A DNA stretch of 53,258 bases from the IMG/VR virus record IMGVR_UViG_3300036046_000007, positions 1 through 53,258 of that record. One strand, written 5' to 3'. The stretch comes from a virus. Below the pieces are notes generated by a model. The model worked only from the letters and a program-made list of their open reading frames with translations, had not been told where the DNA came from and searched no databases. Shown here piece by piece: positions 8,538 through 24,972 of the stretch (positions are counted from its first letter, which is position 1; every line of letters begins with the position of its first letter). The position numbers and the translations under genes were made by a program.

Positions 8538-10928
8538 TCAGAATGGCACGTCTCCCGTGGACGGCAATGACCCTTGTGCAGGCGTCGACCAGTCCCGTGC
8601 CCCATGCAGCTCAACCCACCGCGCTCGGCACGTCTCCAGGTCCGGCAGCAACCAGTGCCACAAGCGCTTCTCGACCTTGACAACATAGCCGTCGCCGGTC
8701 GGCACCTCAACCTTGGCCAGCTTCTGGATCGGCTCCAGCTTAGGACACATGCGGTGCATGAACTTGCCCAGGGCGGTCTGGTTGCCCCTGCGCGACACGT
8801 TCCAGCGCTTGGTGTGCTCGATGTAGTCGTCCGTGAGGTGGTCCTTGATGACTTCAGCGGGCCAGCCATCCTGGTCGGGGAGCAGCACGCCCTCCTCCAG
8901 CTTGTTGAGCCACCAGTCCTCCTCGGCGGTGAGGCTGAGATCCTTCTGGTCGCGCAGCGCCTGGGTCTGCGGCACGTCCTGCACCCGGTAGCCGGACAGG
9001 TCATAGGTGAGCAGGTGGTGAAGCAGGGCTTCGCGCCCACCGTTGTCCATCTGATCAGCGATCGCGCCGAAGTATTCTGCCTTCTGCTGCTGGGCCTCGC
9101 CCACGTCCAGCACGAAGAAGCGGCGCTCATCACCCGACGCAGGCACCACATGCTCGTCGTTGGCCGCCATCATCAAGTGGACATAATTGGGAGCGGTCTC
9201 CACGTCAACGCCCTTGGCCTCGATCTGCAAGGTGTCCTCGGTGATCAAGGTCTTGAGAATGGAGGCGTGCTTCTTGTCCCCGGCGTAGAACGCCTCGTCA
9301 GCGAACAGGAACACTGCATCTCGCAAGTGCGAGTTGAAGTTGCCGATCAGGTGGCTCGGGTTGGAGATGTGGAGGAAGTGCCGCCCGAACAGCATGCCCA
9401 CCTGCCGCGCGACGAAGCTCTTGCCGACGCCCTTGCCGCCCCGCATGACCACGGCCACGTGCCCAGGGGTGCCAGGGTGCTGCACCATCCGCGCCAGCCA
9501 GCCCATCAGGTAGCGGTAATGGTCCTCGTTGCCCTGACAGACGTTGTCCTTCAGGTGGGCCAGGAACAGGGAGCAGTCGCCGGGCCGCGCGGCCACGCTG
9601 AACCCCTTCCACAGGTTGTAGGCGTCAGGCACCTCACGATTGGGAGCGAACACGATCTTGCCGAACTGCCTCCGCATAGGATGGTTGATCCACCAGGCCC
9701 CCACCGGCTTCATGATGGGGTTGCCCTTGCTGTCCTCGCCGACCTTCACGAACTTGTTGCAATAGAAGTTTCGGAAGTCATCGAAGCTCTGGCGCGTCAG
9801 CCGGGACCGGCCCAGCACCTCGTCCTCCACCTCCTCGACCACCCGGCACCGACCACCAATGTTGGCGATGACCGCGTAGCGGTTGTTCAGCTGCGTCAGC
9901 CAAGGGTCGATGGCATATTCATGCGCGCGTTCGATCTGTCGCACCGCATACTTCTGGGCGTTGGCCCCATGCTGGAGCACGCTCTCGCTGATCCCGAAGT
10001 CCGGGTCAGTGATGATCGAATACATGACATCGTCGGGGACACCCGACCGCACCATGCCGCAGAGCGCGTCGAAGACCCAGGCCGACCGGCTGTTGTCTTT
10101 CTCCTTCCGCTCGTCAGGATGGTGGCCCTGCACGATAATGACCTTCACGCGGTCCGGAACCGACCACTGGTCGAGCTCGCTGACGTCTGCGATGCGCTCC
10201 ACGTTGCCAGAGATCTGGACCGTCTTGGCCGCGCCGGAGAAGCCCTCGTCGCCGGGGCTCTGCTGCGTAGGCGCGGGGGTGAAGGTGTCGAGCGGGTAGG
10301 CGTGGTCCTCGAACGAGATCAGCTCAGCCAGGGTAGGCACCCGGCCCTTCTTGGCCTTCTTGGCGTCCGGCAGGTTGATGGTGCCGGGCAGCCGCATGAT
10401 GCGGTCGACGTTGTGGCAGTGGTCCGCGCCGAACAGGATCTCCAGCTGCTGGTTGTAGCGCTTGGCCTCTTCAGCGAGCTCCAGCTCGCCATTGATCGGC
10501 ATGGGATCGGTCAGCCGCCAGAAGCCCTGGTAGCCGCCGCCCGAGAATACCACGGCGGTGGGCGCAGGCACTCCCTTGGGCAGCTTCTCAGTGAGCAGCC
10601 TCAGTGCGCGCTGGCGTTCCTCCTCGATGTCCTCCCCGGCGCGCGGATCGATGTCCACATGAAGCCATGCGAGTTCCTTGATCTCCTCGCGCTTGGTCTT
10701 CTTGTCGCCACCCTCATAGAGCGGCGGGTTGACCTGGAAGTAGATGTTGAAGCGCCCGTTGTATTGCTCCAGCCAATCGCGCAGCTGAGCGATCGTCTTG
10801 GGACCGAAGCTCTGCGTATCAATGGACTTGCGGTCCGGGCGGATCGCAGTGAGAACCCAGGGGCCAGCGGGAGCCCAACGCTCAAGGAATGATACAGCTG
10901 CGTCGTTGTCAGTCTTCGGTGCAGCCAT
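8538..10928 (-). CDS. Primase-helicase (primase-like N-terminus, D5/SF3-type helicase)
   Basis: 796 aa. The N-terminal third has the look of a RepB/archaeo-eukaryotic primase-like domain (HVDIDPRAGED; VVFSGGGYQGFW; NVDRIMRLPGTINLP). The second half carries Walker A RGGKGVGKS at about residue 497, then VFLFADEAF as Walker B and MMAANDEHVVP as sensor, matching phage D5/DUF5906 superfamily 3 helicases. It should prime and unwind at the phage fork together with the family A polymerase encoded downstream. Start ATG 10928 lies almost directly after the HTH gene's stop. Confidence 0.85.
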   Translation of the reverse strand: MAAPKTDNDAAVSFLERWAPAGPWVLTAIRPDRKSIDTQSFGPKTIAQLRDWLEQYNGRFNIYFQVNPPLYEGGDKKTKREEIKELAWLHVDIDPRAGEDIEEERQRALRLLTEKLPKGVPAPTAVVFSGGGYQGFWRLTDPMPINGELELAEEAKRYNQQLEILFGADHCHNVDRIMRLPGTINLPDAKKAKKGRVPTLAELISFEDHAYPLDTFTPAPTQQSPGDEGFSGAAKTVQISGNVERIADVSELDQWSVPDRVKVIIVQGHHPDERKEKDNSRSAWVFDALCGMVRSGVPDDVMYSIITDPDFGISESVLQHGANAQKYAVRQIERAHEYAIDPWLTQLNNRYAVIANIGGRCRVVEEVEDEVLGRSRLTRQSFDDFRNFYCNKFVKVGEDSKGNPIMKPVGAWWINHPMRRQFGKIVFAPNREVPDAYNLWKGFSVAARPGDCSLFLAHLKDNVCQGNEDHYRYLMGWLARMVQHPGTPGHVAVVMRGGKGVGKSFVARQVGMLFGRHFLHISNPSHLIGNFNSHLRDAVFLFADEAFYAGDKKHASILKTLITEDTLQIEAKGVDVETAPNYVHLMMAANDEHVVPASGDERRFFVLDVGEAQQQKAEYFGAIADQMDNGGREALLHHLLTYDLSGYRVQDVPQTQALRDQKDLSLTAEEDWWLNKLEEGVLLPDQDGWPAEVIKDHLTDDYIEHTKRWNVSRRGNQTALGKFMHRMCPKLEPIQKLAKVEVPTGDGYVVKVEKRLWHWLLPDLETCRARWVELHGARDWSTPAQGSLPSTGDVPF

Positions 10929-10929
10929 C

Positions 10930-11280
10930 TCACTGCTCCCAATACTGGACTAGCTCCGTGCTGTCGACCTCACCGCGCTCCATCTGGCGCACCCACATCT
11001 TGCAGCGGTTGAGATCCTCGGCCACCTTGGCCTGCGTCACGCCGACACGCCGACGGTAGAGCAGGCACTTCTCGTGCGGCTTGAGCGGACTGACGCGGGG
11101 GAGCACCGGCCCTGGGCCCAGGGTCTCGATGGGGTCGTCGAGCCCGCGCTCCCAGCGGCTGTAGCGGCTCTGGCTGACCTTGTATCGAAGCGCCGCCTCC
11201 GCCTGGGTTTCGTCACGCCGACGACGATCGACGAGCAGCCGCTCCGCCGCCGTCAGGCTCCCTAGATCTGCATGAGGCAT
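10930..11280 (-). CDS. Tandem helix-turn-helix DNA-binding protein
   Basis: 116 aa with two similar halves. The first has DETQAEAALRYKVSQSRYSRWERG, and the second has VGVTQAKVAEDLNRCKMWVRQMERG. Each looks like a Cro/XRE-type helix-turn-helix (TQAxxA turn S-x-x-x-WExG). It could be a regulator or an initiator-like protein for the adjacent primase-helicase. The start overlaps the end of the nuclease gene by 19 bases. Confidence 0.7.
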   Translation of the reverse strand: MPHADLGSLTAAERLLVDRRRRDETQAEAALRYKVSQSRYSRWERGLDDPIETLGPGPVLPRVSPLKPHEKCLLYRRRVGVTQAKVAEDLNRCKMWVRQMERGEVDSTELVQYWEQ

Positions 11281-11663
11281 CGCTTCAATTCCTTCATCTC
11301 AATTCCACCGTGCCATACCCGCACGGCCATTTCCTCCAGCCTGGCCCTGGGCACGTAGCCCAGCTCGGCTGCCGCCCCCGCACCGGGGAGCAGAAGCCAG
11401 TCCTGCCCCACCTGGAGCAGAACGTGGACGCGCCCCCCGGCGCGAGCTCTTCGCTTGATCCAGACGCGCTGTCCGGTGCGGAAGTGGACGCACGGCACCA
11501 CTGCATCGGGATCGCGGGGCCAGCGCCGGAGCTTCTTTAGCTCGATCCAGCCCTCGACGTAATTCACATCTGGCGTGCCGGGTCGGGCTGGGTTCTCGAC
11601 AGAGACCGCGTCCAAGGACCGGAGCCCCCGGACGACACGCTGTCTCATAGTTTGCTCGCTCAT
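11262..11663 (-). CDS. PD-(D/E)XK nuclease-like protein
   Basis: 133 aa. The core RPGTPDVNYVEGWIELKKL has the G-x-PD and E-x-K spacing of the PD-(D/E)XK fold, as in VRR-Nuc and Holliday-junction-resolvase-like phage proteins. A basic C-terminal half follows (WIKRRARAGG). Probable role: structure-specific nuclease in replication or recombination. Overlaps the dCMP deaminase gene by 4 bases (ATGA). Confidence 0.7.
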   Translation of the reverse strand: MSEQTMRQRVVRGLRSLDAVSVENPARPGTPDVNYVEGWIELKKLRRWPRDPDAVVPCVHFRTGQRVWIKRRARAGGRVHVLLQVGQDWLLLPGAGAAAELGYVPRARLEEMAVRVWHGGIEMKELKRCLMQI

Positions 11664-12118
11664 GCATCGCTCTCAACTTTCGAGGGAGCCCAGCCGCTGA
11701 CCTCAATACCAGCCTCGCGCAGCATGGCGATCGACTTGCGCGTGCTGTCCGCCCACCGCTCCTGGAACGAGTAGGGCACGTTCTCGGGCCACACCACCCG
11801 GCTGAGCCCGGCCTGCACCAGGTGCACCGCGCAGCGCTCGCAGACCGGATGGGAGCAGTAGAGGGTGTAGCCACGCACCGGCTCATGGGCCGACAGCACC
11901 GCGTTCATCTCAGCATGGACGACGCGCGCCAGCTTCTGCTCGCGGTCTGCATAGAGCGCGGGTGCGTCGCTCATCCCACGCGGGAAGCCGTTGAAGCCCA
12001 GGGAGGCGACCGACTTGTCAGGGCGGACGATCACCGCGCCGACTTGCGAGCTCGGATCCTTCGACCAGTCAGAGACATGGCCGCACAGGTCGAGGAAGCG
12101 GGTGTCCCACTTGCTCAC
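11660..12118 (-). CDS. Deoxycytidylate (dCMP) deaminase
   Basis: 152 aa from GTG 12118 (GTGA overlap with the cupin gene; a longer frame upstream lies wholly inside that gene). Zinc-site motifs are visible: VVHAEMNAVLSA (HAE, proton shuttle Glu) and HPVCERCA (C-x-x-C). The FNGFPRG region is typical of dCMP/CMP deaminases. It converts dCMP to dUMP, the substrate of the phage ThyA-family enzyme at 16 kb, so it feeds the predicted modified-thymidine pathway. Confidence 0.85.
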   Translation of the reverse strand: MSKWDTRFLDLCGHVSDWSKDPSSQVGAVIVRPDKSVASLGFNGFPRGMSDAPALYADREQKLARVVHAEMNAVLSAHEPVRGYTLYCSHPVCERCAVHLVQAGLSRVVWPENVPYSFQERWADSTRKSIAMLREAGIEVSGWAPSKVESDA

Positions 12119-12597
12119 GCCGCCTGCTCCTTGGGCCAGGAGCGGTCGCCATGGATCTCGACGAAGTCCTTGTAGTGGACCCAGCCCGCGTCGGTCATGA
12201 AGCCCCACTCACGGACCTTCGGCCCGGTAATGAACAGGCTGACCGTGCGCTCGACGCCGGGCAACAGCTCCAGCCGGTGCAAGGCATCCGCCGGGCGGTG
12301 AACCACTTCGCCCTCGTGGCGTTCGAACACGCCCTCCGGTGTGTGCTCCAGGTAGCCACCTCGGATGACCACTGAAGTGTTCGGCCAGGGATGATCGTGC
12401 AGCGCGCGGTCGTCGTCCGGCCCGAGCATCTCGTGCAGGTAGACGTTGGAGAAATAGTTGCGGGGGATGACCCACCAACGGCGCAAGTAATTGACACCGA
12501 TCTCGAAGTCGCGGGGCCGGGAGACCATGATACCGTCTGCCCACTTTTGCATCTCTGGCAGGTCACAGCGGAATTCAGTGTGGGGCTGGTAAAGCAT
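12115..12597 (-). CDS. Cupin-fold protein
   Basis: 160 aa. The motif HDHPWPNTSVVIRGGYLEHT followed by a second His (DALHRLELLPG) fits a single cupin barrel with a metal site. Similar cupins occur in phage replication regions, but the substrate is unknown. It lies between the DNA polymerase and dCMP deaminase genes, so a role in nucleotide or base metabolism is possible but not shown. Confidence 0.7.
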   Translation of the reverse strand: MLYQPHTEFRCDLPEMQKWADGIMVSRPRDFEIGVNYLRRWWVIPRNYFSNVYLHEMLGPDDDRALHDHPWPNTSVVIRGGYLEHTPEGVFERHEGEVVHRPADALHRLELLPGVERTVSLFITGPKVREWGFMTDAGWVHYKDFVEIHGDRSWPKEQAA

Positions 12598-15295: not shown

Positions 15296-15682
15296 TCAGT
15301 TGTCCTTGTTGAGTTGGATGAGCTCGCGCAGATCCTTCTGCACAGCCTCCAGGTGGGGGCGGCAATCCCAGCGGCAGAGCAGCTGGATGATCGACCGCTC
15401 CACCACGTCCAGCGGAGCGACGAATGCGCTGACCAGGTCCATGCGCGCCACCCCCCTGGGCAACCGCACGCCCTCGTCGTGCAGCTCGATCAGCTTCTGC
15501 ACATAGTGCTCAGCCTTCTCGAGATCCTGGACGCCACCCTTCTGTCGCCAGCGCGCCACATACTTGGTCGCGCAGCCCTCCAGGTAGCCGATGCCCGATC
15601 GTTCAATCAGGTCCCAGTGTTCAATTCCCCCATCCCGCTTGTAGTGGCTTCCCCCGATCTGCCGATCGTTAGCTTGGCTCAT
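15296..15682 (-). CDS. SaV-like / DUF3310 protein
   Basis: 128 aa from ATG 15682. The signature IGGSHYK at residues 8-14, IEHWDLIERSGIGYLEG, and KYVARWRQKGGVQDLEKAEH define the DUF3310 family of small nucleotide-kinase-associated phage proteins. The extra 50 residues possible upstream lie within the ThyA gene and are rejected. The exact function of the family is not established; it is often found with phage nucleotide metabolism genes. Confidence 0.8.
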   Translation of the reverse strand: MSQANDRQIGGSHYKRDGGIEHWDLIERSGIGYLEGCATKYVARWRQKGGVQDLEKAEHYVQKLIELHDEGVRLPRGVARMDLVSAFVAPLDVVERSIIQLLCRWDCRPHLEAVQKDLRELIQLNKDN

Positions 15683-16694
15683 TGACCTTCTTCTCTCGCC
15701 TTTCCAACCACTCCAGGGCGGCGCGCCGCCAGTCAGTGGCCTTGCAATTCTCCAGGGCTTCACGAGCCAGGTCGAAGCGCTCCTGCCCGTCCGTGCTCTT
15801 GTAGGCTTCATGCGCCACCCACATGGGGATGGCAACCCGACGGAAGAACGGATCTCGCAGCCCAGGGGTGGGACCTACGTCCATGAAAACGGACAGGTCT
15901 TCACGCCAGCGAGCGAGCTCCGTCGACATCAACGGGAAGGGCTCCACCTCCTCGTTGTGGTAAGGGTCGTCGGTGAAGTAGTGGCCTCCCGCCGCGACCA
16001 GGGGCTCCAGGGTCGCGTGATAGGCGTGGAGGTTGTTTGACAGCTGGAAGAAGCGCCCCACCTCGACGCCGATCGCCGTGGCGAGATACTCGTGCAGATA
16101 GCTGAAGTGAACAGCGTTCGCACCGTAGGCTCCCCAGATGATGTCGTTGCTGCGGTTGAGCAGCGTCATCTCAAGGCGGCCATCGACGCCGATCGACACG
16201 AAGATCTGCGTGTTGCAGGGCACGTCCTTGCCGGGCTTCTTGTGGTTGCCGGCACCGACCGCCAGCGGCAGGTCGACCGTCGGGTCCCACATGCCGATGA
16301 CACAGCGGCGACTGTCTGGGTTCTTGCGCAGCTCGTCGATCACCATCTGCAGCTGGTCGTAGCCGAACCAGCTGATCCAGCGGCGACCATACGCGCCATG
16401 CAGGGTCTTGCCATCGTCGCTGAAGGTCCGCATGCGCTTGACGAAGCGCTCGACGAACTTGACGTCGTCGCGCCCCGACAGCATCCACAGGCTCTCGAAC
16501 AGGTGGAAGAACGGGTTGGCATCGCGGGGCGGGTTGAACAGCACCCGCTCCCTGGGCCGCTCGTAGGTCGTCATGACCGGCTCGCGGAACAGGGAGACGG
16601 GGCCGTTGCGACTGTCCCGGTGCTCCCCGCGCTCAGCCAGAAGCTGAAGCGCGGCGGGCAGCGCGTCGTTCACATTGCGGACACGAAGCTCCAT
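15669..16694 (-). CDS. ThyA-family enzyme (thymidylate synthase or dUMP hydroxymethylase)
   Basis: 341 aa. ThyA-fold landmarks: NPFFHLFESLWMLSGRDD near the N-terminus, the catalytic Cys in KDVPCNTQIF (~residue 159), RSNDIIWGAYGANAVHFSYL (substrate-binding Arg/Ser and the Asn of the dUMP/dCMP discrimination site) and NNLHAYHATLEP. In hypermodifying phages a ThyA homologue makes 5-hydroxymethyl-dUMP rather than dTMP. The neighbouring predicted 5-hmdU kinase makes that plausible here, but the reaction cannot be decided from sequence alone. Start ATG 16694; the gene overlaps the DUF3310 gene by 14 bases. Confidence 0.85.
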   Translation of the reverse strand: MELRVRNVNDALPAALQLLAERGEHRDSRNGPVSLFREPVMTTYERPRERVLFNPPRDANPFFHLFESLWMLSGRDDVKFVERFVKRMRTFSDDGKTLHGAYGRRWISWFGYDQLQMVIDELRKNPDSRRCVIGMWDPTVDLPLAVGAGNHKKPGKDVPCNTQIFVSIGVDGRLEMTLLNRSNDIIWGAYGANAVHFSYLHEYLATAIGVEVGRFFQLSNNLHAYHATLEPLVAAGGHYFTDDPYHNEEVEPFPLMSTELARWREDLSVFMDVGPTPGLRDPFFRRVAIPMWVAHEAYKSTDGQERFDLAREALENCKATDWRRAALEWLERREKKVNEPS

Positions 16695-16695
16695 G

Positions 16696-17310
16696 TCAGG
16701 CTGCCGCCTTGAGGCCGATCTCGGCGTTCAGGTCGGAGATCAGCAGTGCCGGCAGAGTGCCCTTCGGCCCAGCGTGAACCTCCGGCAGCAGCTCAGTCAC
16801 TTCCGGCCACACCTCGACCAGGCGCGCCACCGACGTGACGCTCTCGACGACAGCCTTGACCCGGCTACGCAGGGCGCGCTCGCGTTCGCTCAGCTCCTTC
16901 TGCATCGCGTCGAGGATCGCCTTGGCGTCCCGCACCGCGTTGCGCGCGGCCATGTAGGGGTGGTCGGGGCTGATGATCGAGGCGATGTGGGTGCCGTGAC
17001 GATTGTCGTGCACCTCGTAGGGCACCCGCTGAGCCTCGGCGAACTGGATCTGGATAACCTCGTTGGTCTCCTCGACCGCGACCTTGACGGACGTGCTCTT
17101 CGGGAACCAGCCCTCCGGAGCGGCGCTCAGGCGCTTGCGGTCGACTTCGCTGAACGCAGCTTCATAGCCAACCTTGTCGCGTTCCTGGGTGAGCTGACGG
17201 ACTTGTTCCTCCTGCTCGGCGATCTGCAGCTTGTCGGCGGCGAACCGCTGGGCAACTGCGTTGGCGATGATCCCATCACGGATCTCGGCGGTGATACGAA
17301 TGTAACCCAT
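16696..17310 (-). CDS. Hypothetical protein of the modification cassette (Nmad5-like?)
   Basis: 204 aa from ATG 17310 (AGGAG nine bases upstream), directly after the 301-aa gene. Starts MGYIRITAEIRDGIIANAVA, then a helical coiled-coil region (LQIAEQEEQVRQLTQERDK), a beta-rich middle and a C-terminal helical part. The opening and helical layout recall small phage families annotated as nucleotide-modification-associated (Nmad5 type), but this is weak recall. Its position between the ThyA and DNA-transferase genes suggests a part in the modification pathway. Confidence 0.55.
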   Translation of the reverse strand: MGYIRITAEIRDGIIANAVAQRFAADKLQIAEQEEQVRQLTQERDKVGYEAAFSEVDRKRLSAAPEGWFPKSTSVKVAVEETNEVIQIQFAEAQRVPYEVHDNRHGTHIASIISPDHPYMAARNAVRDAKAILDAMQKELSERERALRSRVKAVVESVTSVARLVEVWPEVTELLPEVHAGPKGTLPALLISDLNAEIGLKAAA

Positions 17311-17311
17311 G

Positions 17312-18217
17312 TCACTGATCTCCTGCATTATGGGGAGTGAACCTTTGCTTGGCGCGGCCCTCCCCGAGGCGCACACGCTCATACTTGTCGAACTCGCACA
17401 GCCAGTGCTGCACGGTAGCTAGCTCCCAGCGCGGCCAGTCCTCCGGCCAATAGTCGGGGTGGCTTGCCAGGGCCAGCAGCCCGCCCATGTGAGCCACCAT
17501 TTCCTCGCGCTGCCGCGCATTGTTGTAGTCAAAATGCCCCACCTCACCGTGCAGCACCCGGCTCAAGCCGCGCGCGCTCCCTGGGCCAGGGCACGTCCAG
17601 GTCATCGTGTCGGTGGCGTCGGCCAGCAGCGGCGAGTGACGCATGTCACAGACCATCTGGTAGGCCATGAATGGGCCCAGGTAGGGGAAGGGTAGCAGCT
17701 CCTCGTGGGCTCGCTGCAAGGTGTGATACCACTGGATGCCAGCCACCCGGTCCATGTGCCGCGCGCGCACCTGGTCGATGCAGTCCAGCAGCCCGTCAAC
17801 CTTGTTCACGCGCAACGGTGACTTGATCATATAGGCCGCGCCGAGGATGGTCTCTTTGCGAGCTACCCGTTCCTTGAGCAAGCGGCGAGCCTCTTCCGTG
17901 TCCCAATCGCCCAGGAGGAGGGGCTTCAGCAGCTCGCCGGTCTCGATCTTGTTGAACCAGCGGAACACCACCGCCGCCATATATTGGCGCGCCAGGTCAT
18001 CACCCAGCGGCTCGGTGAGGTTGGCGCGCATCCACCGGGTGACCCGATCGTCCTCGCGGAACACGTTGCAGAAGCGGCTGCCAGCGTAGATGGGATCATC
18101 GGTCCAAGGTGGGCCAATGGGCTGCTCACCGAGCGCAACCCGTTCCTCGTCGACTTGACGGCGGGTGAGTATATCGTAGCGCTCGCGGGCCGTGGCGAAG
18201 AAGGCTTCAGCCGTCAT
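17312..18217 (-). CDS. Thymine-hypermodification helical protein (HMUDK-helical / aGPT-PPlase superfamily)
   Basis: 301 aa from ATG 18217 (ATGA overlap with the 67-aa gene). The N-terminal pattern PPWTDDPIY, FCNVFREDDRVTRW (residues 36-62) and later YLGPFMAYQMVCDMRH are hallmarks I associate with the helical, glycosylase-like family annotated as 5-hmdU DNA kinase helical domain or alpha-glutamyl/putrescinyl-thymine pyrophosphorylase. These enzymes replace pyrophosphate on hypermodified thymine with an amine or amino acid. Which clade it belongs to needs an HMM. It lies next to the predicted P-loop 5-hmdU kinase and the ThyA-family gene. Confidence 0.78.
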   Translation of the reverse strand: MTAEAFFATARERYDILTRRQVDEERVALGEQPIGPPWTDDPIYAGSRFCNVFREDDRVTRWMRANLTEPLGDDLARQYMAAVVFRWFNKIETGELLKPLLLGDWDTEEARRLLKERVARKETILGAAYMIKSPLRVNKVDGLLDCIDQVRARHMDRVAGIQWYHTLQRAHEELLPFPYLGPFMAYQMVCDMRHSPLLADATDTMTWTCPGPGSARGLSRVLHGEVGHFDYNNARQREEMVAHMGGLLALASHPDYWPEDWPRWELATVQHWLCEFDKYERVRLGEGRAKQRFTPHNAGDQ

Positions 18218-18417
18218 GCCGGTGGCCGATCGTGGGTGATGACCTTCAGGAATGCCCCGGCCATAGCCATCAGGACCAAGGTCACACCAGCCGTGACCCA
18301 TTCCCGTTCGTCGACGAGCTTAATGAGAACGAAGATGGATAGCACGTCCCACATCGAGCAACGCTCGTCGAGCAGATACCAGGCGACGCGGCGCATGAAC
18401 CAGAGCAGCTTCTTCAC
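18214..18417 (-). CDS. Small membrane protein (67 aa)
   Basis: 67 aa, MKKLLWFMRRVAWYLLDERC followed by two hydrophobic segments (VLSIFVLIKLV and AGVTLVLMAMAGAFLKVI), so two membrane spans are predicted. ATGA overlaps tie it both to the kinase upstream and to the 301-aa gene downstream. Its function is unknown; membrane targeting inside a DNA-modification operon is odd and it may simply ride along. Confidence 0.6.
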   Translation of the reverse strand: MKKLLWFMRRVAWYLLDERCSMWDVLSIFVLIKLVDEREWVTAGVTLVLMAMAGAFLKVITHDRPPA

Positions 18418-18983
18418 AGTCCCAGCTTCCCTCGGATATGGGCCAGCGCCTCTTCGCGGCTGCCCTCGAACACTGGCACCTCAGCGGCGCGCAGCCGCTC
18501 CAGCGACTTCTTGACGCCGTTGAACTTGGAGATCGTGTTCTTCTCCTTGACCGGAGGCAGGTCCGGGTTGCGGGCCTTGCGCCGCGCGTTGACGCTGTCG
18601 AGGCATTCCTGGAGCTCGGTGGTCAGCGCCACCACTTCGAGCTCCTGCCCGTTCTCCTGGGCCCACTGGTGTAGGTCCACGTGGCGGTTCACGTCCGCGG
18701 AGATGAGCAGACCCTCGAAGATCACGTCCATGCCCCGGCTGGCGCTTTCCTTGACCAGCTCGAAGATGGTCTCCATCTTGGCGATGGTGTCGCAGCCCCC
18801 ACAGGCCGTCTCGTAGTGGCCGATGATGGCCAGCGAACGGCGCTCGGGATGGGCCATCACGTAGCCGATGGGCTGCTTGCGGCCCTCGACCTTGTGCCGG
18901 AGCTTGGTAGGATACTCGGCCATGATCTGACGCACAAGGTGCGTCTTCCCCGATCCGGACGTGCCACGAATATTGATGATCAC
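18414..18983 (-). CDS. Predicted 5-hydroxymethyl-dU DNA kinase (P-loop kinase)
   Basis: 189 aa. P-loop GTSGSGKT at residues 7-14. A downstream GHYETACGGCDTI segment and VIFEGLLISADVNR are the features I recall from the phage 5-hmdU DNA kinases, which phosphorylate the hydroxymethyl group on DNA as the first activation step of thymidine hypermodification. The start at ATG 18983 follows the GGCAAGAAAGGGAG leader. General P-loop nucleotide kinase is the alternative. The stop overlaps the 67-aa gene. Confidence 0.78.
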   Translation of the reverse strand: MIINIRGTSGSGKTHLVRQIMAEYPTKLRHKVEGRKQPIGYVMAHPERRSLAIIGHYETACGGCDTIAKMETIFELVKESASRGMDVIFEGLLISADVNRHVDLHQWAQENGQELEVVALTTELQECLDSVNARRKARNPDLPPVKEKNTISKFNGVKKSLERLRAAEVPVFEGSREEALAHIRGKLGL

Positions 18984-19019
18984 AGGGCCACTCCCTTTCT
19001 TGCCTTAACCATGCCGCGC

Positions 19020-19484
19020 TTAGAAGGCGACCGCAATCAGCTTCTTGGCGCAAGCCTTGGTGGCTTGCTCAATCTCACGCACGACATGGTTGAACTCGTT
19101 CGAGCCAGTCTTCATGAAGTTGGGGTCAGCGATCCGGCTCAGGCCGATGAAGGAGCCCAGGGAGACCCACTGCTTGCCCGGCCCAGGGGAAGGACGGATG
19201 CGGGTGAGGCGCTTGTAGTTGCCGCCGTCCATGAAGAGGACCGCGTCAGCCCACTCCAGGTCGTCCTCGGTGATGGCTCGGGAGCGATGGGGCTCCAGGT
19301 CATAGCCCAACCGGGCTGCCGCCTCCCGCATCTTCTTGGCGGCGCGCTCGGGCTTCCACCGCTCGTTCTGCCACGCCTTCAGCGCAGCCTCACGGATCTC
19401 CCAATCGGGGCGCTCTTGGCGCAGGATCGCGGCGCTCAGGGCTGAGCGGTTGATGTTGCCGTGGCAGACGACGAGGACTTTCAT
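19020..19484 (-). CDS. Low-molecular-weight phosphatase (LMW-PTP family)
   Basis: 154 aa from ATG 19484 (GGGAAG upstream; ATGA overlap with the 67-aa gene). The P-loop VVCHGNINRSA has the catalytic C-x5-R-S pattern (Cys7, Arg13), and IADPNF supplies the general-acid Asp of the DP loop. Family members dephosphorylate protein tyrosine or small phosphomonoesters. In this cassette the natural suspicion is a phosphorylated nucleotide or base intermediate, which is inference. I know of no standard role for such an enzyme in phage DNA modification. Confidence 0.8.
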   Translation of the reverse strand: MKVLVVCHGNINRSALSAAILRQERPDWEIREAALKAWQNERWKPERAAKKMREAAARLGYDLEPHRSRAITEDDLEWADAVLFMDGGNYKRLTRIRPSPGPGKQWVSLGSFIGLSRIADPNFMKTGSNEFNHVVREIEQATKACAKKLIAVAF

Positions 19485-19684
19485 ATCATACTTCCCTTGC
19501 ACAGCTCCAGCGCCTGGGCCTCGGTGAAGCCCTCGTTCATGTAGGCGATGAAGAGCGACCGGCGCGCCTTGGCCACCGTCGCGGCATGCTGGGGGATGGC
19601 CCGCATGAACTTCATCTGTGCTTCCAGCGCAGCAAGCAGCTCGTCCGGCTTGGTCGGCAGCGCTGTTACCTTCTCATCACTCAT
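19481..19684 (-). CDS. Small helical protein (67 aa)
   Basis: 67 aa from ATG 19684 (a GTG-type extension to 19696 is possible). It overlaps both neighbours by ATGA. Composition is helical (DELLAALEAQMKFMRAIPQH, then ARRSLFIAYMNEGFTEAQAL). The second half resembles short phage HTH-like or UBA-like helices, but no function can be assigned. Confidence 0.6.
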   Translation of the reverse strand: MSDEKVTALPTKPDELLAALEAQMKFMRAIPQHAATVAKARRSLFIAYMNEGFTEAQALELCKGSMI

Positions 19685-19815
19685 GACAACCACCATGCAC
19701 CCAAGCCAATTATGGCCAGGACGATACCGATCGTCACCACTGCGTTATAGCAGCCCACAGCCGGGCTGCCCTCTTCGATAACGAGCGGTCCCCACCGCCT
19801 GGGTTCCTCTTTCAT
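19681..19815 (-). CDS. Very small membrane protein (44 aa)
   Basis: 44 aa, MKEEPRRWGPLVIEEGSPAV then one strong transmembrane helix (VVTIGIVLAIIGLGAWWL). GGAGAGGCGACC precedes ATG 19815. ATGA overlaps couple it to the amidoligase upstream and the 67-aa gene downstream, which argues that it is genuine despite its size. Confidence 0.58.
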   Translation of the reverse strand: MKEEPRRWGPLVIEEGSPAVGCYNAVVTIGIVLAIIGLGAWWLS

Positions 19816-20729
19816 GGTCGCCTCTCCTTGAGAACAGCCGCGATGTTGAGCGGCAATTGGTCCTTGGGGATGGTACCGTCGTGCACCGTGCGCCGGTAGC
19901 GCTCCTCCAGCCAGTGGTCGTAGGGCTGGAAGGGGATGATGCCGTTCGGATAGTGGGCAGCCATGTTGTCGATCAAGTCCTGAACCGGCTCGCCTTGGAG
20001 CGCGCGGATCAGGTATCCCTCGCACCAGGTGAAGGCCATTGACAGCAGCTCTGGGTCCATCGTCCCAGGGAAGTGCCTGAACTCGATCGTGTCGGTCTCG
20101 CGCAGCTGCCGCACGTTGACGGAGAGCCGGGGCTGAAGGTGCATCTGTGGCACCCCAGCCTGGGAGCAGGGGGCCTCGGCACGGAAGAAGTCCTCGACCG
20201 TCTCGGCGGCGAGTTGCCGCGCCACCCGATCAGGCTTGAGGAGGGTCTGGTGGCTGGCCCGCATGCGCCGGAGGCGACGCTTCCACCCCTGGGTGTAGCC
20301 GGGCATCTTCTCCTGGGCCTCGATCTTGGGCAGCACCAACGGCTCGATCACCGGCAATGCCTTGGGCATCCACTCATGGATATGGGTCTGCACCCGCTTG
20401 AGGGTCTCCAGGTCGTCCCTAAGCCCAGGGACACGAATGTGCAGGTGGAGGTTGGACCGATAGTTGATCGTGGCCTCTGGGTAGAGCTCCTGTAGCTCTC
20501 GCATACAGGCCATCTGGCCCTCGATCGTGCTGGTGGGCGGCGTGTTGATCTCCCCACCGCGCTGGTGCAGCCGGTCCTTGGGGTCGTTGGCCACCCCGGT
20601 CGAGTTGACAATCGTGATGTCCTTGCGGTCGCGACCGTAGCCGGGCGGCAGCGGGCGGGTGGTGTCCCAGTCGGCCCACTCGTGCTCCGCGCCGTAGGTC
20701 CAGTTGCCGACGTTGCGATCCCAGCTCAT
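19812..20729 (-). CDS. Amidoligase (COOH-NH2 ligase superfamily)
   Basis: 305 aa from ATG 20729 (ATGA overlap with the FAD gene). The N-terminus YGAEHEWADWD, then ITIVNSTGVAND, GGEINTPPT, and later RLSVNVRQLRETDTIEFRHFPG fit the glutamine-synthetase-fold amidoligase family (COOH-NH2 ligases), whose acidic residues bind Mg-ATP. These enzymes join a carboxylate to an amine. Aravind and colleagues linked amidoligases to phage thymine hypermodification, so attaching an amino acid or polyamine to the modified base is a reasoned inference. Confidence 0.75.
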   Translation of the reverse strand: MSWDRNVGNWTYGAEHEWADWDTTRPLPPGYGRDRKDITIVNSTGVANDPKDRLHQRGGEINTPPTSTIEGQMACMRELQELYPEATINYRSNLHLHIRVPGLRDDLETLKRVQTHIHEWMPKALPVIEPLVLPKIEAQEKMPGYTQGWKRRLRRMRASHQTLLKPDRVARQLAAETVEDFFRAEAPCSQAGVPQMHLQPRLSVNVRQLRETDTIEFRHFPGTMDPELLSMAFTWCEGYLIRALQGEPVQDLIDNMAAHYPNGIIPFQPYDHWLEERYRRTVHDGTIPKDQLPLNIAAVLKERRP

Positions 20730-21604
20730 CCAAGTCTCCGTGCAATCTCGTGCGCCGCCCAGCCTGCCGCCAGGGTGCCGTTCTTCGCGCCACCCGACGC
20801 GGCCCATAGCCCCGGCCCCACCTCCTGAAGGAGGCAGGGCTTGTGGCCCTTGGCGTAGGGCCGGATGCCGTGGAGCAAGCGCGCTCCGTCATTGGGCGTC
20901 AAGCCCAGGGGGCTGAGCAACCCATCAGCGAAGTGTCGCTCACGCTCATACACCGTCCGGGTGCGGTCGTCGTCCCAATTCTCAGCCTTGATGGCGGTGC
21001 CGTCGCCGATCCACATGCCGTCGCCCCGGTCGAAGCCTACCAGCTGGCGGTAGGGAGCCCACACCTTGATCTTCCCGCGCGGCGGGTGGTGGTCGGGGAA
21101 CAGCAGCGCCATGCCGCGCTGGCCCTGCTGGCGCACCTGGGGCAACAGCCGCTCAGTCCAGATGCCAGCCGCCACCACGATGTTGCGTGCGAACACACGC
21201 TCCAGAGAGCGCGCCGGGCCGGGGCCAGACACCTCGACAAAGCGGCCCCCGTCCATCTTCTCGCCCACCCTGGTCACCGACCAATGCTCCGTCGGCCCTG
21301 CCAGGATCTTCGCCGGGTCACACCAGTGCACGGTCGCCTCAGCCAGTTTCCCGGTCTTGCCGACCGCTACGTCGAAGGGCAGATCCTTCACCCCGTAGAG
21401 GCGGTCCAGGAGGGCCAGGGAGGGCTCATAGACGTCCTTGCCCAGGGCGCTGAACCAGCTCGGCTTCATGAGGCAGGCAGCGGGCCTGGAGCCTGCCATC
21501 GGTTCACGATTGTCGAGCACCCGAACCTCTTGCCCCTGGGCACGCAGCTCAGCAGCGATGATCTGGCCGAACAGGCCCCCACCGATGATGATGGTGTCAG
21601 TCAT
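20726..21604 (-). CDS. FAD-dependent oxidoreductase / lyase (DAO-like)
   Basis: 292 aa from ATG 21604 (GGAGGGGAA upstream). Dinucleotide-binding N-terminus IIIGGGLFGQIIAAEL with an Asp at the end of beta-2 (VLDN), an ARNIVVAAGIWTE loop, and a C-terminal GPGLWAASGGAKNGTLAAGW segment are typical of D-amino-acid-oxidase-like FAD proteins. In characterised thymidine-hypermodification pathways a flavin-dependent lyase trims a glycine attached to 5-hmdU to an aminomethyl group; that role is the best analogy here. Confidence 0.78.
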   Translation of the reverse strand: MTDTIIIGGGLFGQIIAAELRAQGQEVRVLDNREPMAGSRPAACLMKPSWFSALGKDVYEPSLALLDRLYGVKDLPFDVAVGKTGKLAEATVHWCDPAKILAGPTEHWSVTRVGEKMDGGRFVEVSGPGPARSLERVFARNIVVAAGIWTERLLPQVRQQGQRGMALLFPDHHPPRGKIKVWAPYRQLVGFDRGDGMWIGDGTAIKAENWDDDRTRTVYERERHFADGLLSPLGLTPNDGARLLHGIRPYAKGHKPCLLQEVGPGLWAASGGAKNGTLAAGWAAHEIARRLG

Positions 21605-22013
21605 TTCCCCTCCAAGTCTGCCGCCCCAAGGTTCCAGCGGCATGTTGTTCCTTGGCGCGCTCAGACAGCAACGAGCGAGTTTCCGCAGAAAAGTCCGGTG
21701 GCCGTCTCGCGTCCCGACGAAGATTAAACATCTCGCCCTTGTATTGATCTAAGAAGGTTTGTTCGCGATCTTTTACCTGTTCCTTGGAGCAGTAGTCCAA
21801 CTCTTCCCACTTAAAGTTACTCTCACCATAAGTCATCCAAGCGAACTGAAGCGCTCGGTTGTGGCCGCACCCGTCATTATAGAGCCGCCAGTGGCGACGT
21901 CTCCTAGCCTCGAGATCAAGCGAACTGCCGATGTAGACCCACCCACTCGTCATGCAAGTGATCTTGTATATGCCAATGCGACGCTGGCGGGGAGGCCTAC
22001 CAATCCTTGGCAT
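21597..22013 (-). CDS. GIY-YIG homing endonuclease, free-standing
   Basis: 138 aa from ATG 22013. GIYKITCMTSGWVYIGSS is the GIY...YIG pair, RRRRHW the following Arg helix, and the Glu of the catalytic site is in ESNFKWEELDY. The C-terminal ~35 residues look like a short NUMOD-type DNA-binding tail (TRSLLSERAKEQHA). The stretch 21.68-21.99 kb is visibly richer in A+T than its neighbours, consistent with insertion of a mobile gene between the two DNA-modification genes. Confidence 0.85.
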   Translation of the reverse strand: MPRIGRPPRQRRIGIYKITCMTSGWVYIGSSLDLEARRRRHWRLYNDGCGHNRALQFAWMTYGESNFKWEELDYCSKEQVKDREQTFLDQYKGEMFNLRRDARRPPDFSAETRSLLSERAKEQHAAGTLGRQTWRGND

Positions 22014-22911
22014 CGGGCCTACCCGCCGGCATTGCATGCAGCATGGAGCGAGCAGTTTCACTATGGGGTGCCCATGTCTCAAGACCTGCACGTATCTCAT
22101 TGATATCATTGTAAGGAGGGTAGTGCCCGTTGAGCATAGACTTCCACTTGCAGAGGATAGTCTCGATCTCCTGAAGAGCCACCGCGCGCTCGTGCCGGGG
22201 CGGGGCGGTGTGGGCCTTGAAGTGCTCGGTCAGGTGCGCCACGACGTTGTCGATGATGAGGTGCTTGGTCGCCTCGTCCTTGGGCTCAGCGTTGTCCGGC
22301 AGGTTCTCGTGGGCGCGCCACAGCCGGAGCGCGGCCTTGACCGGGTCGGCGAACATGAAGACCGACGCCTTGTCGAAGTCGATGGGGGCGATGCCCAGGC
22401 GGTCGAGCATGTCGCAGACCTTGAAGGCGATCCAGGGGCCGAACAGCGGCAGCCCCTTGGCGCGCGCGGCCACCTCGGCGAAGGGCTGGGGCCGGGCGGT
22501 CACCGGCACGATGTGATTGGGCGGGATGCCGTAGGCGATGTCGTGCACGGCCCGCTCCGGCATGTCTTGGAAGCGGGCGCGCAGGCGCTGCACCGCGTCC
22601 ATGGCTGCCTTGCCCCGGAAGTGCCGCCGCTCGCTGCCCCTGGGCCACCGACCCCCATCGGGAGCCGGGGTCACGTTGGCGGCGGCGGTCGCCATGGCAC
22701 CCCAGAAGCCGTCGCCCTGGTGCTCGCTGATGAAGCTGGCCGCGCCGCAGTGGTAGAAGCACCAGTAGGCCAGAAGCCACCGCTCCAGGTGGGCCGGGTC
22801 GGCCCACTCCATCTTGTCGAGCGCGATATAGACAGGGTCCAGGTCACCGCTGTCCAGCAGGTGCTTCCCGAACTCATAGATGTCAAGACGGGGGTAGTTA
22901 CGTTTCGCCAT
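21997..22911 (-). CDS. Amino acid:DNA transferase-like protein (aGPT-PPlase2 type)
   Basis: 304 aa from ATG 22911 (AGGGAG upstream). The characteristic block is AYWCFYHCGAASF (48-60), then GGRWPRGSERRHFRG (86-100), then GPWIAFKVCDMLDRLG. This matches the second clade of alpha-glutamyl/putrescinyl-thymine pyrophosphorylases, later shown in M6/ViI-like phages to install amino acids on 5-pyrophosphomethyl-dU in DNA. It is the first gene of the cassette. The gene overlaps the GIY-YIG gene by 17 bases. Confidence 0.82.
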   Translation of the reverse strand: MAKRNYPRLDIYEFGKHLLDSGDLDPVYIALDKMEWADPAHLERWLLAYWCFYHCGAASFISEHQGDGFWGAMATAAANVTPAPDGGRWPRGSERRHFRGKAAMDAVQRLRARFQDMPERAVHDIAYGIPPNHIVPVTARPQPFAEVAARAKGLPLFGPWIAFKVCDMLDRLGIAPIDFDKASVFMFADPVKAALRLWRAHENLPDNAEPKDEATKHLIIDNVVAHLTEHFKAHTAPPRHERAVALQEIETILCKWKSMLNGHYPPYNDINEIRAGLETWAPHSETARSMLHAMPAGRPDAKDW

Positions 22912-23739: not shown

Positions 23740-24972
23740 TTACGCCGAGGCCACCATCCGAGGGCGATCGCCGGTCAGGTATTCATGCAGGTCGTCGTAG
23801 CCACCGATCAGCGTCCCGTTGTGATACACCTGCGGGAAGGTCCGATGGCCCTGGGCCTTGAACGCAGCGATCTGCTCCTCGGTCGTATGCTCCTCGATCC
23901 TGTGTGAATGGCCCAGGGAGGCGAGCAGCTCCTGGGCGTGATCGCAGTAAGGGCAGCCGGGCTTGGCCAGCACCAACCAGTCGTCCTTGGGCGCGGCTGG
24001 CGCGTCGAACTCTGCGAATGCATCGTCCCAGGAGCCAGTGACGCTGGCCTTGGCATAGTCGGTCGCTCGGTTCTCGAAGAAGTTGGTGTGCTCCTTGCCG
24101 GAGACGATCACGTCCACCCAGGGCAGCGGGTTGGTCACCACGCCGAATACAGCGGGCAGCCCCAGCTGAGCCAAGCGGCGATCGGCGATGTAGCGAATGT
24201 AGCTCTTGACCTCATCGGCGGTCAAGCCCTCCACCTCGGCTTCGCCATAGGCCAGGTCGATGAAGCGGTCCTCCATCTCGACCATCCGGACGCAAGCGTC
24301 GGTGATGCGCTGCCGGAGCTCCGGCGTCCACAGCTCAGGGTGCTCGTCCAGGAGCGCATGGAACACCTGCACCATGGAGGCCACGTGGTGGCTCTCGTCC
24401 CGGATCGACCAGCTGACGATCTGGCCCATGCCCTTCATCTTGCCGAAGCGGGTGAAGTTGAGCAGGATCACGAAGCTGGCGAACAGCTGAAGCCCCTCGC
24501 CGAAGGCGCTGAACACAGCGATGTCCCGAGCCAGGCCATCCAGTCCGTCACTGGCCTCACTCATGAACTCGTGCTTCTCGCGCATGGCCTGGTAGTCCAT
24601 GAACGCAGCGTATTCCGCCTCCGGCATGCCGATCTCGTCGATGAGCGTCGAGTAGGCCTGAATGTGCACCGCCTCGCGCGCCGCAATCGAGGCCATCATC
24701 ATGCGCAGCTCCACCGGCTTGAACAGCGGCAGGTAGCGGTCGATGTAGCATTCCGCGACGTCCACGTCCGCCTGGGTGAAGAAGCGGAAGATCTGGGTCA
24801 GCAGCCCCTGCTCGTCCGGCGACAGCCGCGTCTTCCAGTCCTGGACGTCCTGGTTGAGCGGCACCTCGCGGGCGAGCCAGTGCATCTGCTCGCTCTCGAC
24901 GAAGGCTTGGTAGGCCCAGGGATACCAGAATGGCTTGTATGCAGCGCGTCGGGCGAACAGGGAAGGTGTCAT
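23740..24972 (-). CDS. nrdB: Ribonucleotide reductase beta subunit fused to glutaredoxin
   Basis: 410 aa from ATG 24972. The first ~320 residues are an R2 subunit: metal ligands in DVDVAECYIDRYL (Asp/Glu), AAREAVHIQAYS (E-x-x-H), AFGEGLQ and RDESHHVASM (E-x-x-H). The C-terminal ~75 residues (from VLAKPGCPYCDHAQ, ~residue 336) are a complete glutaredoxin with CPYC, then FPQVYHNGTLIGGYDDL. The fusion would provide the reductant for NrdA in one chain. Such fusions are known but not common. Confidence 0.9.
   Translation of the reverse strand: MTPSLFARRAAYKPFWYPWAYQAFVESEQMHWLAREVPLNQDVQDWKTRLSPDEQGLLTQIFRFFTQADVDVAECYIDRYLPLFKPVELRMMMASIAAREAVHIQAYSTLIDEIGMPEAEYAAFMDYQAMREKHEFMSEASDGLDGLARDIAVFSAFGEGLQLFASFVILLNFTRFGKMKGMGQIVSWSIRDESHHVASMVQVFHALLDEHPELWTPELRQRITDACVRMVEMEDRFIDLAYGEAEVEGLTADEVKSYIRYIADRRLAQLGLPAVFGVVTNPLPWVDVIVSGKEHTNFFENRATDYAKASVTGSWDDAFAEFDAPAAPKDDWLVLAKPGCPYCDHAQELLASLGHSHRIEEHTTEEQIAAFKAQGHRTFPQVYHNGTLIGGYDDLHEYLTGDRPRMVASA

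Follow-up and report, generated by a model that had tools for sequence, protein, structure and literature searches.

The window analysed here, a 53,258-base viral record from IMG/VR whose relatives are Mesyanzhinovviridae phages, carries on its minus strand (15669-22911) an operon-like run of genes that probably hypermodifies thymidine in the phage's own DNA, and in which a putative amidoligase, here called AML, would couple a small carboxylic acid through an amide bond to an amine carried by the base. We favour this reading on the basis of sequence, predicted structure and gene context, drawn from contigs that are often fragments. A chance origin of the gene set is excluded, because near-identical gene order recurs in many independent viral contigs.

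In the direction of transcription, the run leads from ADDT (an amino acid:DNA transferase) through a GIY-YIG open reading frame (ORF), a flavin adenine dinucleotide (FAD) enzyme, AML, a 44-aa ORF, a 67-aa ORF, a phosphatase, a kinase, a small membrane ORF, HMUDK_hel and Nmad5 to a ThyA-type enzyme, with neighbours coupled by 4-base overlaps. An earlier note on this DNA had described seven of these genes as an operon joined mostly by ATGA overlaps; all seven lie at the coordinates and on the strand that it gave, and the overlaps comprise five ATGA junctions (FAD enzyme to AML, AML to 44-aa ORF, 44-aa to 67-aa ORF, 67-aa ORF to phosphatase, and small membrane ORF to HMUDK_hel) and one GTGA junction, which couples the kinase to the small membrane ORF. 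The gene list, correct in what it contained, omitted Nmad5, the GIY-YIG ORF and three small ORFs.

A predicted route to 5-aminomethyl-deoxyuridine

The first four steps of the proposed pathway are modelled on homologous enzymes that have been characterised. The ThyA-type enzyme would produce 5-hydroxymethyl-deoxyuridine monophosphate (5-hmdUMP), which would be polymerised into DNA; it is 51-54% identical to the PaMx11 and M6 enzymes and 53-54% to the M6 and Bhz59 homologues, and its top match in the PDB is a CMP 5-hydroxymethylase (6e-18). The kinase and its helical partner HMUDK_hel would then phosphorylate the 5-hydroxymethyl group in DNA. In Pfam the kinase matches Zeta_toxin (6e-9) and, weakly and below the cutoff, HMUDK (PF18748, 8e-4); PaMx11 gp49, to which it is 50% identical, likewise stays under the PF18748 cutoff, and M6 gp54 scores 7.7e-18 against the same family. 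We reject the label 'terminase small subunit' that the kinase receives from PHROGs, given its cassette position beside HMUDK_hel and the case of M6 gp54, an HMUDK that bears the same label. Entries phrog_800, M6 gp54 and PaMx11 gp49, all 5-hydroxymethyl-deoxyuridine (5-hmdU) kinases, carry this label in PHROGs and GenBank, apparently as a misannotation.

In the third step ADDT would exchange the phosphate for glycine to give N-alpha-glycyl-thymidine, which the flavin lyase would cleave to 5-aminomethyl-deoxyuridine (5-aminomethyl-dU). ADDT matches the PDB entries 25qc and 8z2m, the latter named 'Glycinyltransferase', and residues 2-291 of the 292 in the FAD protein align with 8z2o, a 'Flavin-dependent lyase' (phmmer, 2.1e-74). 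Since the FAD enzyme is close to a solved flavin-dependent lyase and the transferase to a solved glycinyltransferase, the core of the cassette probably makes 5-aminomethyl-dU. In the work of Lee 2022 and Wen 2024, glycine is reportedly attached to 5-hmdU, and a lyase then yields 5-aminomethyl-dU.

The idea of a thymidine hypermodification cassette, put forward in the earlier note, holds together with its family assignments, as judged from Pfam, the PDB and identities to PaMx11 and M6. Profile searches match PF18724, PF18723 and DAO, but PF18748 and PF12224 (18.9 bits) stay below cutoff, and the kinase and the two transferase-like proteins do not fall into unrelated families. The FAD oxidoreductase of that note is present, but its kinship to the solved lyase had been missed. 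That note took phages M6 and ViI, with their related enzymes, as pathway models; PaMx11, with its ADDT, flavin lyase and acetyltransferase, offers a closer one.

The putative amidoligase and its phosphatase partner

PaMx11 gp46-gp51 shares with the window the order of ADDT, flavin lyase, capping slot, kinase, helical partner and ThyA-type enzyme, at 45-51% identity per protein, but its gp48 is a GNAT acetyltransferase where the window has AML and the phosphatase; no relative of the GNAT enzyme is found in the window. The M6 cluster (gp51-gp58), which makes 5-aminoethyl-dU, shares ADDT, kinase, helical partner, Nmad5 (M6 gp56, 2e-33) and the ThyA-type enzyme, whereas its slot holds pyridoxal phosphate (PLP) and radical-SAM enzymes and it is without flavin lyase, AML or phosphatase. 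Neither the M6-type PLP enzyme nor the radical-SAM enzyme occurs in the window, as had been noted earlier. From its fold, its conserved residues, the gene-slot replacement and its co-occurrence with base-modification genes, we suggest that AML acts as a fifth step in place of the PaMx11 acetyltransferase and would use ATP to join the primary amine of the base to the carboxyl of a small acid, yielding an amide-linked base. The earlier suggestion of an end product possibly unlike the bases of M6 and ViI also holds.

The structure model of AML (mean pLDDT 95.5) retrieves glutathione and glutamate-cysteine ligases (GCL), glutamine synthetases (GS) and YbdK from the PDB in Foldseek, with E-values from 1.7e-4 to about 1e-2. 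Gly13, Glu15, Glu17, Asp20, Glu60, His97, Arg201, Glu216 and Arg218 are invariant across 27 AML homologues, a pattern that we take to resemble the GCL metal ligands and, more broadly, metal-ATP carboxylate-amine ligases. AML is predicted from these features to be a GCL/GS-fold carboxylate-amine ligase that acylates a base-bound amine. All seven A1 members match PF12224 at E-values up to 0.05 (best 8e-5). Three AML loci were recovered by single-sequence search, and 31 and then 66 by alignment-based searches of IMG/VR; two scans of bacterial and archaeal genomes returned none. Tandem AML-like genes, in two or three copies, are present in L072, L073, L075, L076, L091, L092 and L095 and might carry out successive couplings.

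Grouping of the loci under 85% identity, with phage Simon and Vibrio phage 2.275.O added, gives 53 AML lineages, 42 of which have ADDT in the fetched stretch. Among 30 lineages with the FAD lyase, 17 have AML, six the acetyltransferase, seven neither and none both (Fisher p=0.003, with lineages treated as independent although they are not fully so, and with HMM (hidden Markov model) labels built from the same loci set that they classify). A tree of the lyases, many of whose inner branches are weak, shows 2-5 swaps between AML and the acetyltransferase; L025, which has AML, and L050, which has the acetyltransferase, form a supported sister pair. The seven lineages with neither enzyme lend something to the proposal that the cassette ends at 5-aminomethyl-dU, with AML contributing little. 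We regard this as very unlikely for the window, however, where AML is intact and coupled into the operon by 4-base overlaps, and where its putative catalytic residues are those invariant in the 27 homologues. FAD-lyase cassettes without AML or acetyltransferase (L013, L014, L057, L060, L061, L062, L066 and L067) may have 5-aminomethyl-dU as their end product or be completed by a different capping enzyme.

The phosphatase model (pLDDT 96.3) displays the fold of the low-molecular-weight protein tyrosine phosphatases (LMW-PTP) with their signature C(X)5R(S/T) loop and general-acid Asp-Pro, and Cys7, Arg13, Ser14, Asp120 and Pro121 are invariant in 23 homologues. It accompanies AML in 35 of the 53 lineages, starting no more than 150 bases after AML in 22 and lying adjacent on the opposite strand in five, and it never occurs without AML among the loci of the first survey. 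The phosphatase is an optional partner of AML, linked to AML and not to the kinase, because acetyltransferase-type cassettes with the same kinase do not have it, and L021 has it although neither kinase nor ADDT is detected there. From this linkage we would guess at a sixth step in which it works with AML, for example by dephosphorylating the added group or its donor. The intact active site and the phosphorylated DNA intermediate of the pathway would also suit an enzyme that only reverts or clears 5-phosphomethyl-dU that the kinase has made and that has failed to react further, independently of AML chemistry; the distribution just described, with AML and the phosphatase beside QueF in L021, makes such a role improbable.

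It is more doubtful still that the substrate of AML and the phosphatase is a protein or a free metabolite, such as a host regulator or a nucleotide precursor, and that the two merely share the operon. Peptides are the predicted substrates of other amidoligases, phosphoproteins are the usual ones of LMW phosphatases, and the top structural match of the phosphatase is Wzb (7dhd, 7.5e-12). However, AML lies within base-modification clusters in nearly all resolved lineages and alongside four amine routes, stands in for an acetyltransferase of DNA bases, and is absent from the bacterial and archaeal genome scans.

Putative base-amine contexts of the amidoligase

A putative route to a base amine adjoins AML in 45 of the 53 lineages. 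The FAD lyase accounts for 21 lineages, GATase_6-like proteins (GAT) without QueF for 15, PLP enzymes for seven, QueF for one and QueF with GAT for one, and eight have none by this count. No lineage has both the FAD lyase and GAT (p=4e-5), and none combines PLP with either of them. The eight lineages without a route include the L085 group, where a protein beside ADDT has an N-terminus like a divergent FAD enzyme and matches nothing in Pfam or PHROGs; L029 and L034 are short contigs. The FAD lyase and GAT look interchangeable, since L070, which has no GAT, pairs a TET/JBP dioxygenase with a DAO protein from the same PHROG as the lyase, and L084, which has no lyase, pairs the ThyA-type route with GAT. 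GAT, which is class II glutaminase-like, stands beside ADDT and AML in L030, L032, L035, L038, L040, L072-L078, L081, L084, L086, L091, L093 and L101; possible roles are an ammonia-based route to an aminomethyl base or partnership with AML in amidation.

A different base chemistry is found in L021, where QueF, a small ORF, AML, the phosphatase, another small ORF and QueE are closely packed (about 9264-12307). Its QueF exceeds the NCBIfam cutoff for QueF-II preQ1 synthase and the contig also has QueC, while ADDT is undetected in the contig and a relative of the 5-hmdU kinase is undetected in the fetched 21 kb. The L021 AML falls, in a quick tree, inside a supported ten-member clade with the window AML. 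Phages with QueF-type proteins can, according to PMC6884629, carry dPreQ1 (7-aminomethyl-7-deazaguanine) in their DNA. AML also adjoins QueF in Vibrio phage 2.275.O, where the protein beside AML gave a motif impression of DpdA that Pfam, PHROGs, NCBIfam and PADLOC leave unconfirmed. L003 (9866-11940) resembles L021 in having AML next to QueF/QueE, a possible preQ1-type base extension. No QueF is found in the window.

What the AML contexts have in common, as read from their gene content, is a primary amine on the base (-CH2NH2 in the comparison of the window with L021), and because of this we favour acylation of the base amine by AML. The main rival reverses the polarity, such that AML would activate the carboxylate of a base-linked glycine and add ammonia or another amine, giving for example a glycinamide base, and would form with GAT a split glutamine-dependent amidotransferase. 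It is an established property of the fold that GS-type enzymes activate carboxylates, and 16 AML lineages encode a GATase_6-like protein, which often neighbours ADDT or AML and in no case occurs together with the FAD lyase. Yet the window, like 20 further AML lineages, carries the FAD lyase, an enzyme known to remove that very carboxylate, the PLP/radical-SAM contexts likewise end in an amine, and the AML of L021 adjoins QueF, whose preQ1 is an amine with no carboxylate. The rival is most plausible in the GAT contexts; in the window, where GAT is not seen, we hold reversed polarity to be unlikely.

Several points weigh against acylation of a base amine by AML. AML scores 18.9-19.3 bits against PF12224 (Amidoligase_2), under the gathering cutoff of 22 bits; its structural TM-scores are modest (0.3-0.4), and a PDB sequence search with its profile gave chance matches only and no sequence relative. 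The glycine specificity of ADDT is inferred, and the association statistics carry the partial dependence among lineages mentioned above. Where AML occurs with GAT and ADDT and no known decarboxylase or lyase, the base carboxylate may remain and the polarity could reverse. Finally, the most divergent AML relatives (L092, L094-L096, L100 and L102) stand outside any assigned context. These relatives, together with L098, lie in clusters with a UvdE-like protein, a LuxC-like reductase and methyltransferase-like genes; their contigs have neither QueF nor QueC, and ADDT is undetected there too in a search made without a positive control.

The attachment of small acids to base amines by AML may extend across these contexts. 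We propose, tentatively and with slightly less confidence than an even balance, that AML, usually with the phosphatase, is a portable module for capping base amines, adding small acids to aminomethyl-dU (FAD lyase), aminoethyl-dU (PLP/radical-SAM) and 7-aminomethyl-7-deazaguanine (QueF), with GAT and ADDT as a further amine route that replaces the lyase. On this proposal, dozens of virus lineages would make amide-linked DNA bases that are as yet undescribed.

Cassette layout, related systems and implications

Table 1. Features of the cassette and an accessory gene in the window
Feature	Coordinates	Strand	Supporting matches
ADDT/AADT, amino acid:DNA transferase, 304 aa	21997..22911	-	PF18724 4.6e-20; phmmer PDB 25qc 2.9e-91, 8z2m 1.6e-78
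GIY-YIG homing-endonuclease-like ORF	21597..22109 (likely start nearer 22013)	-	TIGR01453 2.5e-18, over cutoff; PF01541 4e-6
FAD-dependent lyase relative, DAO fold, 292 aa	20726..21604	-	phmmer PDB 8z2o/8z79 2e-74; phrog_16743 6e-70; DAO 1e-14
AML, putative amidoligase, 305 aa	19812..20729	-	PF12224 18.9 bits (cutoff 22); GCL/GS-like predicted fold
44-aa ORF, one hydrophobic stretch, ATGA-coupled	19681..19815	-	
67-aa ORF, ATGA-coupled, partly conserved in L005	19481..19684	-	phrog_26408 1e-4
Phosphatase, Wzb/LMW-PTP fold, 154 aa	19020..19484	-	PF01451 (LMWPc) 4.9e-19
P-loop kinase, predicted 5-hmdU DNA kinase, 189 aa	18414..18983	-	50% identity to PaMx11 gp49, 27% to M6 gp54
67-aa predicted membrane ORF, GTGA-coupled to kinase	18214..18417	-	
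HMUDK_hel, helical partner of 5-hmdU kinase, 301 aa	17312..18217	-	PF18723 1.8e-42; 45% identity to PaMx11 gp50
Nmad5 (nucleotide modification associated domain 5), 204 aa	16696..17310	-	PF18757 9e-26
ThyA-type deoxyuridylate hydroxymethylase (predicted, 5-hmdUMP), 341 aa	15669..16694	-	phrog_5131 2e-126; Thymidylat_synt 6.6e-21
dCMP deaminase, outside cassette	11660..12166	-	PF00383 7.5e-17

Relative to PaMx11, the window adds Nmad5 and the GIY-YIG ORF, the latter probably a selfish insertion outside the pathway. L025 and L036 likewise have an occupied slot at this place, between the transferase and lyase genes, and in L054 a GIY-YIG ORF precedes AML, a distribution that suggests repeated homing into the cassette. 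The dCMP deaminase is a plausible accessory supplier of dUMP. At 23740-24972 the window also encodes an NrdB with a C-terminal glutaredoxin fusion (PF00268 and PF00462).

The combination of enzymes, called new in the earlier note, is so relative to the named isolates compared there, but many uncultivated viruses share it, as does phage Simon (PQ683277, unannotated). Simon shares ADDT, FAD lyase, AML, phosphatase, kinase, helical protein, Nmad5 and ThyA with the window, but its AML is 48% identical and extra unrelated ORFs lie between ADDT and lyase and between lyase and AML. In the CmoA/CmoX/CmoY carboxymethylcytosine system, the ATP-dependent amide ligase CmoY extends a base handle in phage DNA (PMC12783734). 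In contrast to AML, CmoY is an asparagine synthetase homologue that acts on a carboxylate handle on cytosine, with another fold and the opposite polarity, and the window has no PF00145 match that would indicate a C5-cytosine methylase homologous to CmoX. The 7-deazaguanine modifications, including dPreQ1, are described in PMC6884629, the available part of which describes no amide extension of dPreQ1, and AML relatives adjoin QueF in L021 and Vibrio phage 2.275.O. A text search of the open literature, with Lee 2018, Lee 2022, Wen 2024, Iyer 2009 and Iyer 2013 outside its scope, turned up no account of an amidoligase in DNA hypermodification based on thymidine or preQ1.

If the proposed pathway is correct, phage DNA would contain amide-linked, possibly aminoacyl, bases made by a ligase module common to thymine and 7-deazaguanine chemistry, which would constitute a broadly applicable means of attaching chemical groups to DNA bases. 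It would predict the final step of modification in dozens of uncultivated viruses and provide enzymes with which amine-bearing DNA could be labelled; among named phages, this gene set is carried by Simon, known from a sewage sample. For the phage itself, the capped base would conceal its DNA from bacterial defences.

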